A DNA stretch of 34,569 bases from Bacteroidales bacterium (GTDB lineage: Bacteria; Bacteroidota; Bacteroidia; Bacteroidales; UBA932): the NCBI GenBank assembly GCA_028708215.1, contig JAQVZL010000013.1:1-34569 (forward strand). Reading direction: 5' to 3'. The notes beneath the pieces were generated by a model. That model worked only from the letters and a program-made list of their open reading frames with translations, made no database searches and was not told where the DNA came from. The position numbers and the translations under genes were made by a program. How positions within the stretch are numbered: the first letter of the stretch is position 1; each line of letters opens with the position of its first letter. Shown piece after piece: positions 2,598 to 5,274 of the stretch.

Positions 2598-3467
2598 TTA
2601 CTTTAAAATCTTTGTAATAGCATTTGCGCTCTGCATCATCTCAATTAATGCAGCAGAGTTATTCTGCTCAATATGTCTCTTGAAAAGTGTCATTTTCTCT
2701 ATATATGAATCTATTACTTGAGTAATAAACTCCCCATTTTGAGTAAGAATTGGAGCCCACGTTTGTGCGTTACTCTTTGCCAACCTAACAGTAGATTCAA
2801 AGCCACTGGCAGCAAGAGTTAAAATATTCTGCTCGTTCTTCTCTTTTTCCAACACACTTAACGCTAATGAAAAAGAGGTAATATGAGAAATGTGAGAAAC
2901 ATAGGCCACATGAAGGTCGTGGTTACAAGAATCCATCTCAGAAACAGTCATCCCTATAGTTTCAAGCATTTGCCAAACCTCATTTCTTGCTATAGAATTG
3001 CTAAGATTTCCATCACATAAAATTGCATTTTTATCTCTAAAGAGACCATTAATAGTTGCCTGAGGTCCCGAATATTCTGTACCAGCAATAGGGTGAACTG
3101 CTACATAAAACTTTCTCATTGAATGTTCTTTTACACTTTTAGCAATTTTCCATTTTGTAGAGCCCATATCTGCTACTATTTTGTGGCGAGCTCCTTGTTT
3201 TTGCATTCTCTTTATATGATCTAGCACTTGTGGCAATAGATTACATATTGTATCAACTGGAGTGCATAACAAAATTAGATTTGCCCGCTTTACACCCTCT
3301 TCTAAAGAGAGACTCTCATTTGCTAGTCCCATCTTAATTGCAGTTTGTGAGTGCTCTTCGTTTTTATCTACACAAATAATATGGGAGGAATACCCGCTCT
3401 CTTTTAAAGCCATAGCTATAGAGCCTCCAATGAGGCCCATTCCTACAATACAAACTACTCTACTCAT
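2598..3467 (-). CDS. tyrA: Prephenate dehydrogenase
   Basis: This 289-residue cytoplasmic enzyme converts prephenate to 4-hydroxyphenylpyruvate, the tyrosine branch. The N-terminus has a Rossmann NAD(P) site, GMGLIGGS at residues 9-16. The segment VAVHPIAGTEYSGP carries the histidine expected at the active site of the family. There is no C-terminal ACT domain, so feedback control may act elsewhere, for instance through the attenuator or the DAHP synthase fusion. The start overlaps the upstream aminotransferase stop by four bases, and DAHP synthase-chorismate mutase follows after 26 bases. Arogenate specificity cannot be excluded from sequence alone. Confidence 0.93.
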   Translation of the reverse strand: MSRVVCIVGMGLIGGSIAMALKESGYSSHIICVDKNEEHSQTAIKMGLANESLSLEEGVKRANLILLCTPVDTICNLLPQVLDHIKRMQKQGARHKIVADMGSTKWKIAKSVKEHSMRKFYVAVHPIAGTEYSGPQATINGLFRDKNAILCDGNLSNSIARNEVWQMLETIGMTVSEMDSCNHDLHVAYVSHISHITSFSLALSVLEKEKNEQNILTLAASGFESTVRLAKSNAQTWAPILTQNGEFITQVIDSYIEKMTLFKRHIEQNNSAALIEMMQSANAITKILK

Positions 3468-4705
3468 ACTACAAATTCTTTAACAGACTCTTTTAGAACT
3501 CCTAAATTTAACTTGCTCACCCTAGAGTAAGCCTCACTTAAAATCTCTTCACTTGCACAAAGCGAAACTCTTATATATCTCTTGCCCCTGCTACCAAAAA
3601 TAGAACCTGGAGCAATAAAAACGTGGCTATTATATAAAACATCATTGGCAAGTTCCTCTGAGTTTTTATATTTAGAAGGTATCTCTCCCCAAAGAAACAT
3701 CCCCTTTTGGGCCACATCAAAAGAGCACCCCAGCTGCTCCATAAGAGTCTCGGCAATTACTCTTCTTTTACTATAGACTCTGTTTATCTGCTCATACCAC
3801 TCATCTCCACAACTAAGAGCACTAGCTGCTGCCATTTGCAAAGGTTTAAACATGCCCGAATCTATATTGCTCTTAACTTTAATTATTGCTTTTATATACT
3901 CTTTGTGGCCGGCCACCATTCCAATTCTCCAACCAGACATATTGTGAGATTTGCTAATTGAGTTGAGCTCTAAGGCCACCTCCTTTGCCCCCTCTATACT
4001 TAGCAGACTTATATGTTGGTTGTTTAGAATAAAGCTGTATGGGTTATCGTTACAAAGCAAAATATTATGTCTTTTTGCAAAAGCTACTAGTTGTTTAAAC
4101 ACCTCTTTGCTTGCTTTTTGCCCTGTTGGCATATTGGGGTAATTAATCCACATAAGTTTCACCTTAGAAAGATCTCTTTTTTCTAACTCCTCAATATTGG
4201 GGTACCAGTTATTTTCTGGTGTTAGATTGTAATTAACAACCTCTCCACCTACTAGATTGGTAATAGCAGCATAGGCTGGGTATCCAGGGTTTGGAACAAG
4301 AACCTGCTCTGCTGGGTTTACAAACGCCATGCTAATATGCATAATGCCCTCTTTTGAACCCATAAGAGGTAAAATTTCGTTGGATGCATCTAATTCAGTG
4401 TCAAAGTAATTATGATACCATTTTGAAAATGCCTCTCTAAGCTCCTTTACTCCTGCATAACTTTGATAACCGTGGCAATTAGCATTGTGTGCATAACTCT
4501 CAAGAACATCTATTGCCGAATTAGATGGGGCAAGGTCTGGGCTTCCAATTCCTAGATTAATAACATCTATGCCCAATTCACGCATCTGCTCAATTTCTTT
4601 AAGTTTGTGAGAAAAGTAATACTCTTTTACAGCTTCAATTCTTTTAGATCCCTTTATTACAGCAGCTTGGCTGGTTAAATTTGTAGTGTTAACAACTTTG
4701 CGCAT
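3464..4705 (-). CDS. Class I/II PLP-dependent aminotransferase (aromatic amino acid operon)
   Basis: This 413-residue fold-type I aminotransferase probably transaminates phenylpyruvate and 4-hydroxyphenylpyruvate to Phe and Tyr. Visible features are NLGIGSPDLAPS (50-61), NPGYPAY (139-145), NYPNMPTG (188-195), the PLP-contacting aspartate in CNDNPY (D220) and the Schiff-base lysine in SISKSHNMSGWR (K252). Relatives as I recall them start close to the EYYFS segment, so the first 15-20 residues here look like an extension. No better start codon is visible, so the ATG at 4705 is kept. It is the first gene of the operon, about 56 bases past the attenuator T-tract. No prephenate dehydratase gene is present beside it. 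Confidence 0.9.
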   Translation of the reverse strand: MRKVVNTTNLTSQAAVIKGSKRIEAVKEYYFSHKLKEIEQMRELGIDVINLGIGSPDLAPSNSAIDVLESYAHNANCHGYQSYAGVKELREAFSKWYHNYFDTELDASNEILPLMGSKEGIMHISMAFVNPAEQVLVPNPGYPAYAAITNLVGGEVVNYNLTPENNWYPNIEELEKRDLSKVKLMWINYPNMPTGQKASKEVFKQLVAFAKRHNILLCNDNPYSFILNNQHISLLSIEGAKEVALELNSISKSHNMSGWRIGMVAGHKEYIKAIIKVKSNIDSGMFKPLQMAAASALSCGDEWYEQINRVYSKRRVIAETLMEQLGCSFDVAQKGMFLWGEIPSKYKNSEELANDVLYNSHVFIAPGSIFGSRGKRYIRVSLCASEEILSEAYSRVSKLNLGVLKESVKEFVV

Positions 4706-4761
4706 CTCAATTAGTTTAATTTGGGTTGGTTAAGCTTGGTTGGGAGAGGCGGGATACGGGC

Positions 4762-4794
4762 AAAAAAAAAGAGGCTCCCGAACCCGGGGCCTCT
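4762..4794 (-). terminator. Intrinsic terminator acting as attenuator of the aromatic operon
   Basis: On the minus strand the arms AGAGGC-CCCG (4794-4785) and CGGG-A-GCCTCT (4780-4770) form a ten-pair, mostly GC stem with one bulged A and a GGTT loop. A run of about nine T follows (4762-4770). It lies between the leader peptide stop (4817) and the first structural gene (4705), so it should stop most transcripts before the operon. The GGGGC at 4847-4843, inside the leader peptide gene, can pair with GCCCC (4790-4786) of the 5' arm and would break the terminator stem, making it a candidate antiterminator. Confidence 0.88.
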
Positions 4795-4816
4795 CTATTT
4801 TTATTTTTAAATTATT

Positions 4817-4903
4817 TTAATCTACATAACAATAACAGATACGCCCCCTTTTGTAAAAAAAGAAGTAATAAAAAAAGAAGAAATATGAGTTAAAATTTTG
4901 CAT
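4817..4903 (-). CDS. Phe/Tyr-rich attenuator leader peptide
   Basis: This 28-codon reading frame starts at ATG 4903 and ends at TAA 4819-4817. It contains eight Phe and six Tyr codons. Residues 7-17 are eleven consecutive aromatic residues, YFFFFYYFFFY. It lies about 22 nt downstream of a predicted transcription start and about 22 nt upstream of the terminator stem. It is followed by the aromatic amino acid genes aminotransferase, tyrA and DAHP synthase-chorismate mutase. The arrangement is that of enterobacterial pheA/pheST/trp leaders: slow translation of Phe/Tyr codons when charged tRNA is scarce would favour an antiterminator. The sequence observation is direct. The mechanism is inferred from the classical model. 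Confidence 0.85.
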   Translation of the reverse strand: MQNFNSYFFFFYYFFFYKRGRICYCYVD

Positions 4904-4931
4904 CTGCTAATTGTGCATTGTCTTGTTTGTG

Positions 4932-4964
4932 CAAATCTAAGATAATATTTTTAAATACCGCAAA
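4932..4964 (-). promoter_or_regulatory. Promoter of the aromatic amino acid operon and its leader
   Basis: On the minus strand, TTTG (4964-4961), a 21-base spacer and TAGATTTG (4939-4932) match the Bacteroidota promoter pattern. Transcription would begin near 4925, giving a leader RNA of about 220 nt before the aminotransferase start. The remaining gap from 4965 to 5164 holds nothing I can identify. Confidence 0.72.
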
Positions 4965-5164
4965 AAATATGATACAACTTACAAATTGAAACTGTTTACT
5001 GAACTTTACATTTTAACACTAAATGCTTATTATTAAAGTCTTATGTCATTTTAGTTCAATTAAAAATAATTTCATATCTGATTACACGGGATAACCTCTT
5101 TCAATTTTGCATTCAATTATTTAATCCAGAAACTCCAGTTAAGTAGTAAATAGGTTGTGCACAA

Positions 5165-5191
5165 ATAAAAAAACCTGCTGTTAAGCAGGTT
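5165..5191 (-). terminator. Terminator of tRNA-His
   Basis: Minus-strand stem AACCTGCT / AGCAGGTT (5191-5184 and 5179-5172) with a four-base loop, followed by a T run (5165-5171). It lies just after the tRNA 3' end. Confidence 0.85.
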
Positions 5192-5199
5192 AAATTTTG

Positions 5200-5274
5200 G
5201 GTGGATGATGGGGATCGAACCCACGACCTCTAGTGCCACAAACTAGCGCTCTAACCAACTGAGCTACAACCACC
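5200..5274 (-). tRNA. tRNA-His (GTG)
   Basis: Read on minus, the gene has the D-arm GCTCAGTTGGTTAGAGC, an anticodon loop TTGTGGC with anticodon GTG inside the CTAGT/ACTAG-type stem, and a T-loop TTCGATC. A G at 5274 supplies the extra G-1 typical of tRNA-His, opposite C73 (5200). CCA is not fully encoded. In the acceptor stem, position 5 (T, 5269) faces position 68 (T), a T-T mismatch; the other six pairs are sound. Because G-1:C73 is the main identity element for histidyl-tRNA synthetase, the gene is probably functional. Confidence 0.95.

Follow-up and report, generated by a model that had tools for sequence, protein, structure and literature searches.

The aromatic amino acid operon of a Bacteroidales bacterium is preceded by a short leader frame dominated by phenylalanine and tyrosine codons, a G-rich element, and an intrinsic terminator whose 5' arm can pair with that element. 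We conclude that this arrangement is very probably a sensor of charged tRNA-Phe and tRNA-Tyr that works by ribosome-mediated transcription attenuation. By sequence comparison, it belongs to a widespread Bacteroidota group of Phe/Tyr leaders that resembles enterobacterial phe attenuation and falls outside RF01859, with a function in the cell that we infer from its parts. The locus lies in a 34,569-nucleotide stretch (assembly GCA_028708215.1, contig JAQVZL010000013.1) that is referred to here as the window.

The leader region and its operon

In the window, promoter, leader, antiterminator element, terminator, and operon follow each other in that order, all on the minus strand. The putative promoter (4932 to 4964) consists of TTTG at 4964-4961, a 21-nt spacer, and TAGATTTG at 4939-4932, which we take to be the Bacteroidota promoter form. 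In the 84 leaders compared below, TANNTTTG lies no more than 90 nt 5' of the leader start in 65 cases, compared with 4.7 expected from mononucleotide shuffles, and in those 65 its median distance to the start codon is 28 nt. The leader frame that follows (4903-4817, MQNFNSYFFFFYYFFFYKRGRICYCYVD) has 28 codons, of which 14 encode Phe or Tyr, and occupies the place where relatives also carry aromatic leaders. Eleven of these codons are consecutive (residues 7 to 17, positions 4853 to 4885) and form the presumptive sensor. An earlier note on this DNA had described the promoter and the frame in these terms, and both were confirmed from the sequence. A tRNA-His gene (5199-5273, minus strand) with a terminator-like site of its own (5172-5191) is located upstream of the leader promoter.

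The intrinsic terminator (4762 to 4794) folds with a free energy of -18.5 kcal/mol. The hairpin of ten pairs (4794-4770) followed by nine T (4770-4762) was recovered as the earlier note had described it, with the refinements that the hairpin contains one bulged A and that the first T is itself paired within it. An inverted-repeat pattern scan reported a plus-strand repeat and missed this minus-strand terminator, which is visible in folds; the bulged A is probably responsible for the miss. The antiterminator element GGGGGC (4843 to 4848), which is backed by pairing tests and by comparison across the family, contains GGGGC (4847-4843), whose complement, GCCCC, lies at 4790-4786 within the 5' arm of the terminator. 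The partner strand was located by sequence, pairing test, and duplex prediction, the last giving five contiguous pairs and one pair beyond a mismatch at -12.8 kcal/mol. Measured against shuffles, the pairing in the window is weak (p 0.04). The element begins 4 to 5 nt past the 11-codon run, at the short end of the family range, and the window copy is atypical among leaders in having its element so close to the run and only five contiguous pairs. Because of this proximity, a ribosome stalled on the final one or two codons of the run would mask the element.

The first operon gene in the window is a class I/II aminotransferase (3464 to 4705, minus strand; Pfam PF00155), for which no NCBIfam model reached its cut-off among the 25 matches listed. 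It is followed on the same strand by tyrA, encoding prephenate dehydrogenase (2598 to 3467; NCBIfam NF006307 above cut-off, Pfam PF02153 and PF20463), and by a DAHP synthase fused to chorismate mutase (1483 to 2571; Pfam PF00793 and PF01817). The position of the leader upstream of aminotransferase, tyrA, and DAHP synthase/chorismate mutase, as first proposed, is therefore correct for the window, but relatives usually have it before pheA: in most of them, the order is pheA, aminotransferase, and then tyrA and/or DAHP synthase/chorismate mutase, with the leader 5' of pheA. In the window's genome, the sole prephenate dehydratase match is on another contig (locus L036, 1132-2064, contig C56 of genome G000), and because pheA lies elsewhere, the leader adjoins the aminotransferase. 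Only 75 bases separate the detached gene from a preceding same-strand gene, presumably a peptidase-like one, and this gap leaves little room for such a leader there.

Occurrence among relatives

The survey of named loci was based on an alignment of the aminotransferase scanned against genome contigs, from which the best 80 matches listed were taken. These loci rank highest in similarity to the aminotransferase of the window, so that the set leans toward close relatives; its rows are phylogenetically dependent. Of the loci, 78 had at least 160 nt upstream and were counted. The detector required a short frame with at least 7 Phe/Tyr in 12 codons and a terminator within 140 nt downstream. Leader and terminator precede the operon in 58 of the 78 named loci from the best 80 matches listed, and the leader frame, with the terminator ignored, in 64 of these 78. 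We also used a sample drawn evenly from the class, in which the aminotransferase was found at cut-off in 41 of 197 genomes, the window's own included; among the other 40 loci, leader and terminator were detected in 21 at a threshold of at least 6 Phe/Tyr and in 18 at a threshold of at least 7. Within the window's family, the aminotransferase occurs in 16 of 59 genomes, again including its own. Fourteen of the other 15 loci were taken, one genome with a fragmented gene being excluded, and in 12 of them the upstream DNA was long enough to assess; leader and terminator are found at 7 of these 12 (L022, L023, L026, L028, L032, L033, and L034). The leader of L028 was spotted by eye, as the pheA start there had been called too early. 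Conservation in relatives had been set beforehand as a test on which the attenuator reading could fail, and across the named, class, and family loci the leader is kept.

No leader was seen upstream of four loci of the same family (L027, L029, L031, and L035). At a further family locus, L030, an element/arm match and a terminator precede the aminotransferase (oriented positions ~100-220) with no aromatic run; the leader there has possibly decayed or been re-tuned. In the other two surveys, 20 of the 78 named loci (best 80 matches listed) and 19 of the 40 class loci fall below the thresholds. These include loci with a clear leader and no called terminator (L044, L049, L057, L085, L090, L093, L121, L126, and L128), loci with fewer Phe/Tyr codons than the threshold (L078, L096, L105, L111, L136, L151, and L154), and loci that yielded no aromatic leader (for example, L084, L113, L132, L134, L137, L139, L142, and L143). 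All nine named loci, from the best 80 matches listed, in which the aminotransferase does not directly follow pheA are below the threshold; the window and L034 carry leaders although their aminotransferase is not directly preceded by pheA.

Gut species are among the carriers, with leaders found in Phocaeicola vulgatus (L066), Bacteroides fragilis (L082), Bacteroides xylanisolvens (L102), and Bacteroides finegoldii (L110). A more distant member, Phaeodactylibacter xiamenensis (L068), has a clear leader and terminator, with a pairing p of 0.06. At least two Phe together with at least two Tyr codons are present in 82 of the 84 leaders compared, and Trp is present in 9 of the 84. Several leaders (L136, L151, L154, L140, and L146) mix Trp with Phe/Tyr, as in TYFWFYP. 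Such codon content suggests that some of these mixed leaders may sense all three aromatic amino acids.

Antiterminator pairing, folding model, and alternative readings

The pairing set comprised 84 leaders, namely, 62 from named loci (best 80 matches listed), 21 from class loci, and that of the window; loci with fewer than 6 Phe/Tyr codons had been dropped beforehand, and related sequences were not thinned. In 68 of the 84, the complementarity between the sequence past the run and the terminator 5' arm exceeds that obtained with 200 shuffles of the spacer at p<0.05, and no significant element was found by this test in the other 16. The pairing is specific to the partner: the mean element/arm score of matched pairs is 21.0, compared with 15.36 (sd 0.34) for permuted partners, and the maximum of 5,000 permutations is 16.55. 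Since the 68 significant leaders hold 45 distinct element/arm pairs, such as GAGCGGGA/TCCCGCTC, GAGCAGGAT/ATCCTGCTC, AAGTCGGTT/AACCGACTT, and CTGTGAAGCGGGA/TCCCGCTTCACAG, element and arm change together. The pairing that had been proposed for the window, GGGGC with GCCCC, is kept across the family by partner-specific complementarity.

The position of the element also scales with the ribosome. In the 68 leaders, it starts at a median of 11 nt (sd 2.6, range 5 to 16) after the last Phe/Tyr codon of the dense stretch, and its distance from the stop codon has an sd of 13.1. A ribosome whose A site holds the final codon of the run has its leading edge ~10 to 12 nt downstream, so that the median corresponds to about the front of a ribosome stalled at the last aromatic codon. 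In 16 of the 68 leaders, the element begins 3' of the stop codon, and elsewhere its G-rich core occurs in all three frames, so that what is conserved is the RNA and not the peptide.

From these parts we infer where transcription starts, that the leader is translated, that the ribosome stalls and transcription terminates in the cell, and that the operon responds to Phe and Tyr. RNA polymerase would start roughly 20 to 25 nt 5' of the leader frame, with the ribosome following. When Phe- or Tyr-tRNA is short, the ribosome would stall within residues 7 to 17, leaving GGGGC free to pair with the nascent 5' arm of the terminator; with this antiterminator formed, the terminator would not form and the operon of aminotransferase, tyrA, and DAHP synthase/chorismate mutase would be read. 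When both tRNAs are plentiful, the ribosome would clear the run and cover the element, the terminator would form, and the RNA would end near 4762. In the absence of a ribosome, the codon run could itself pair with the element and serve as a weak protector. The anatomy is that of an attenuator, with a leader of cognate codons, an intrinsic terminator between the leader and the first gene, and an antiterminator exclusive with that terminator. The pairing of the antiterminator is taken from comparison, that of the window being weak (p 0.04), and its dependence on stalling is taken from the model.

In our model of the switch, only RNA 3' of the ribosome is folded, before the terminator 3' arm exists. 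For the window, the predicted antiterminator probability is 0.99 to 1.0 for stalls at Y7 to F15, 0.4 at F16, and 0 from Y17 on, and ten relatives that were modeled gave a curve of the same shape. Since the zero past the run follows from omitting the covered RNA, the model is a consistency check and not a proof. With that reading, the earlier argument that GGGGC is free when the ribosome stalls early and is covered otherwise is consistent with the position-by-position folding.

The behavior of ribosome-free RNA adds a possible protector. While the arm has yet to be transcribed, pairing of the element with upstream RNA, run included, is predicted at a probability of at least 0.5 in 78 of the 84 leaders, and reordering the synonymous codons of the run lowers this upstream pairing slightly (0.747 to 0.706, p 1.5e-7). 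The run was seen directly as the partner of the element only in the window's fold, in which 4857-4865 (minus strand) pairs with 4852-4844 in the ribosome-free minimum free energy structure. For the region 5' of the run, pairing with the element shows little enrichment, reaching p<0.05 in 9 of 84 leaders, and the view that no protector exists, drawn from that region, was dropped once the run was included. Once the 5' arm is made, the ribosome-free antiterminator is predicted at a probability of at least 0.5 in 61 of the 84 Bacteroidota leaders, in contrast to 0.0 in E. coli pheL and trpL, the two usable leaders of that comparison; hisL was unusable as a control, since the element finder chose a 5-nt match 44 nt past its run. 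The value is 1.0 for the window, 0.05 for the B. fragilis locus, and 0.09 for the B. xylanisolvens locus, and by these predictions termination of an untranslated leader probably differs between species. The parts and logic first described for this DNA stand, and the protector pairing is a prediction made here that was absent from the earlier note.

Translation of the leader might instead act by another route, such as Rho-dependent termination, translational coupling, or RNA stability, with the terminator being secondary. In many loci no more than about 30 nt separate the end of the hairpin from the called pheA start, and the hairpin could affect initiation there, but in the window it ends 64 nt before the aminotransferase start (4705). 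More generally, partner-specific pairing and ribosome-scaled spacing are needed by attenuation and are not predicted by the other routes, which we consider very unlikely to be the main mode of control.

We give still less credence to a chance origin of the Phe/Tyr frame in T-rich sequence, in which case the hairpin would be a terminator with no regulatory role or mark where a small RNA ends. Phe codons do arise easily in T-rich DNA, and such strings are rare but not unique in the window's genome: eight successive Phe/Tyr codons occur at two sites in 1.9 Mb, namely, the leader (four overlapping matches) and one other, and the same pattern read backwards, used as a control, has three matches. 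However, when the 493-base region was dinucleotide-shuffled 2,000 times, no shuffle contained a short frame with at least eight Phe/Tyr codons in a row, and a terminator of -15 kcal/mol or better arose in only 1 of 300 shuffles. Applied to 409 other gene starts of the named loci, the detector found no leader with terminator at 7 or more Phe/Tyr codons and one at 6, and with the terminator ignored it found 3 at 7 or more, compared with 58 and 64, respectively, of the 78 operon starts (best 80 matches listed). The Tyr codons that accompany Phe in 82 of 84 leaders also speak against chance, and the upstream tRNA-His has a terminator-like site of its own. On the control starts and the shuffles, the chance and unregulated-terminator readings were rejected.

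That the leader encodes a functional aromatic-rich micropeptide and not a sensor, for example, a small membrane peptide, is scarcely credible, since for all the hydrophobicity of the run, the residues after it are unconserved, the G-rich element is found in every frame or beyond the stop, four scanned leader peptides had no NCBIfam match, and that of the window had no Pfam match.

Known attenuators and wider meaning

The closest described counterpart of the leader is the enterobacterial pheL-pheA attenuator (RF01859), which likewise has a short leader with a Phe run, an element just after it that pairs with the terminator 5' arm, and a terminator preceding the pheA gene. Analyzed with the same code, E. 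coli pheL shows the same anatomy, with its element 8 nt past the run. Its leader has Phe and no Tyr codons, whereas the Bacteroidota leaders have both. That the locus follows enterobacterial phe-type logic, as had been suggested, is supported by the conservation, the partner-specific pairing, and the folding model. RF01859 is the nearest leader family, scoring 28.3 bits (E 0.011) on the leader against a curated gathering score of 55, which does not make the leader a member; on the opposite strand nearby it scores 20.2 bits. The leu/phe leader of Lactococcus (RF01743), which is likewise named for two amino acids, scores 15.0 bits on the leader region against a curated 70, again short of membership. 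T-box riboswitches gave no match, either across the window at gathering score or within 4700-5200 when E values as high as 10 were allowed, and no Rfam family reached its curated score on the window leader or at the leaders of 15 relative loci; the T-box and the known Rfam leaders were rejected on this basis. Away from the leaders, riboswitches were seen at gathering score in two relative loci, FMN in L026 (11948-12108) and SAM-II in L033 (13681-13739).

Bacteroid-trp RNA (RF01692) is listed for Bacteroidetes as a predicted cis-regulatory motif (PMC2864571). It differs from the Phe/Tyr leader in its operon and its codons. One match (G121:C22:211689-211813) lies just 5' of trpE (G121:C22:211930), together with a WWW leader and a terminator. 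The family matched 3 of 99 class genomes in a search whose filters lose weak matches; it had no match in the window or leader region and none in the window's genome at E up to 1. Among 20 of 30 trpE-family loci inspected directly (L190 to L209; ten weak partial matches omitted), 15 have a leader with at least 2 Trp and a terminator, and a tandem-Trp example is MNKNNWWWLSTHS upstream of trpE in L209. The Rfam Bacteroid-trp family thus probably misses many Trp leaders. Leaders with at least 4 His in 12 codons and a terminator precede hisG in 15 of 28 class-sample loci (L160 to L187, of 30, the two lowest-scoring being omitted), as exemplified by MKTTNTHHHSHHAHIV, 128 nt 5' of the called hisG start in L163. 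A His attenuator in Bacteroidota is probable from these sequences. The window's own genome has no His leader at hisG (L169) and no TrpE-family match.

Attenuators in Bacteroidetes/Chlorobi were reportedly predicted "in some cases" by Vitreschak and co-workers in 2004, and it is possible that part of the Bacteroidota attenuators were predicted then. The theory of attenuation is the subject of PMC1183508, and PMC4833913 treats leader genes near start codons. The legend of Fig. 6b in PMC6429828 describes candidate uORFs rich in Phe/Tyr that adjoin genes of shikimate metabolism; those uORFs come from five bacterial genomes, and in the sections of the paper that deal with them Bacteroidetes are mentioned solely as a symbiont partnered with one of the five. 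Small frames that resemble leader peptides have been noted within long 5' UTRs of B. thetaiotaomicron (PMC7366714). Among the matches listed, the open-access literature held no description of Phe/Tyr attenuation in Bacteroidota. The earlier note's word "undescribed" can accordingly be kept with respect to Rfam at curated score and to open-access descriptions among the matches listed, but not for the type of mechanism, which is already known.

Taking the Phe/Tyr, Trp, and His leaders together, we are inclined to a joint reading in which attenuation of aromatic and histidine biosynthesis is phylum-wide in Bacteroidota, evolved apart from that of enterobacteria, depends on ribosome and polymerase running close together, and uses a dual Phe/Tyr run whose codons may double as protector. 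Bacteroidota largely initiate translation without Shine-Dalgarno pairing. If the phylum-wide reading is true, ribosome and RNA polymerase would move closely together in these bacteria. A dual Phe/Tyr attenuator that recurs across Bacteroidota would also stand against the suggestion, made on the four attenuator motifs that Rfam then had in the part of PMC3766115 concerned, that amino acid attenuators possibly arose in gamma-proteobacteria and underwent very few transfers, a passage that adds the Firmicutes. As a rule for annotation, the combination of leader and terminator finds unannotated leader genes and the 5' ends of operons. Since attenuation needs a ribosome that keeps pace with the polymerase, each leader would be a natural reporter of transcription-translation coupling, and through these leaders the question of coupling in Bacteroidota becomes directly testable.
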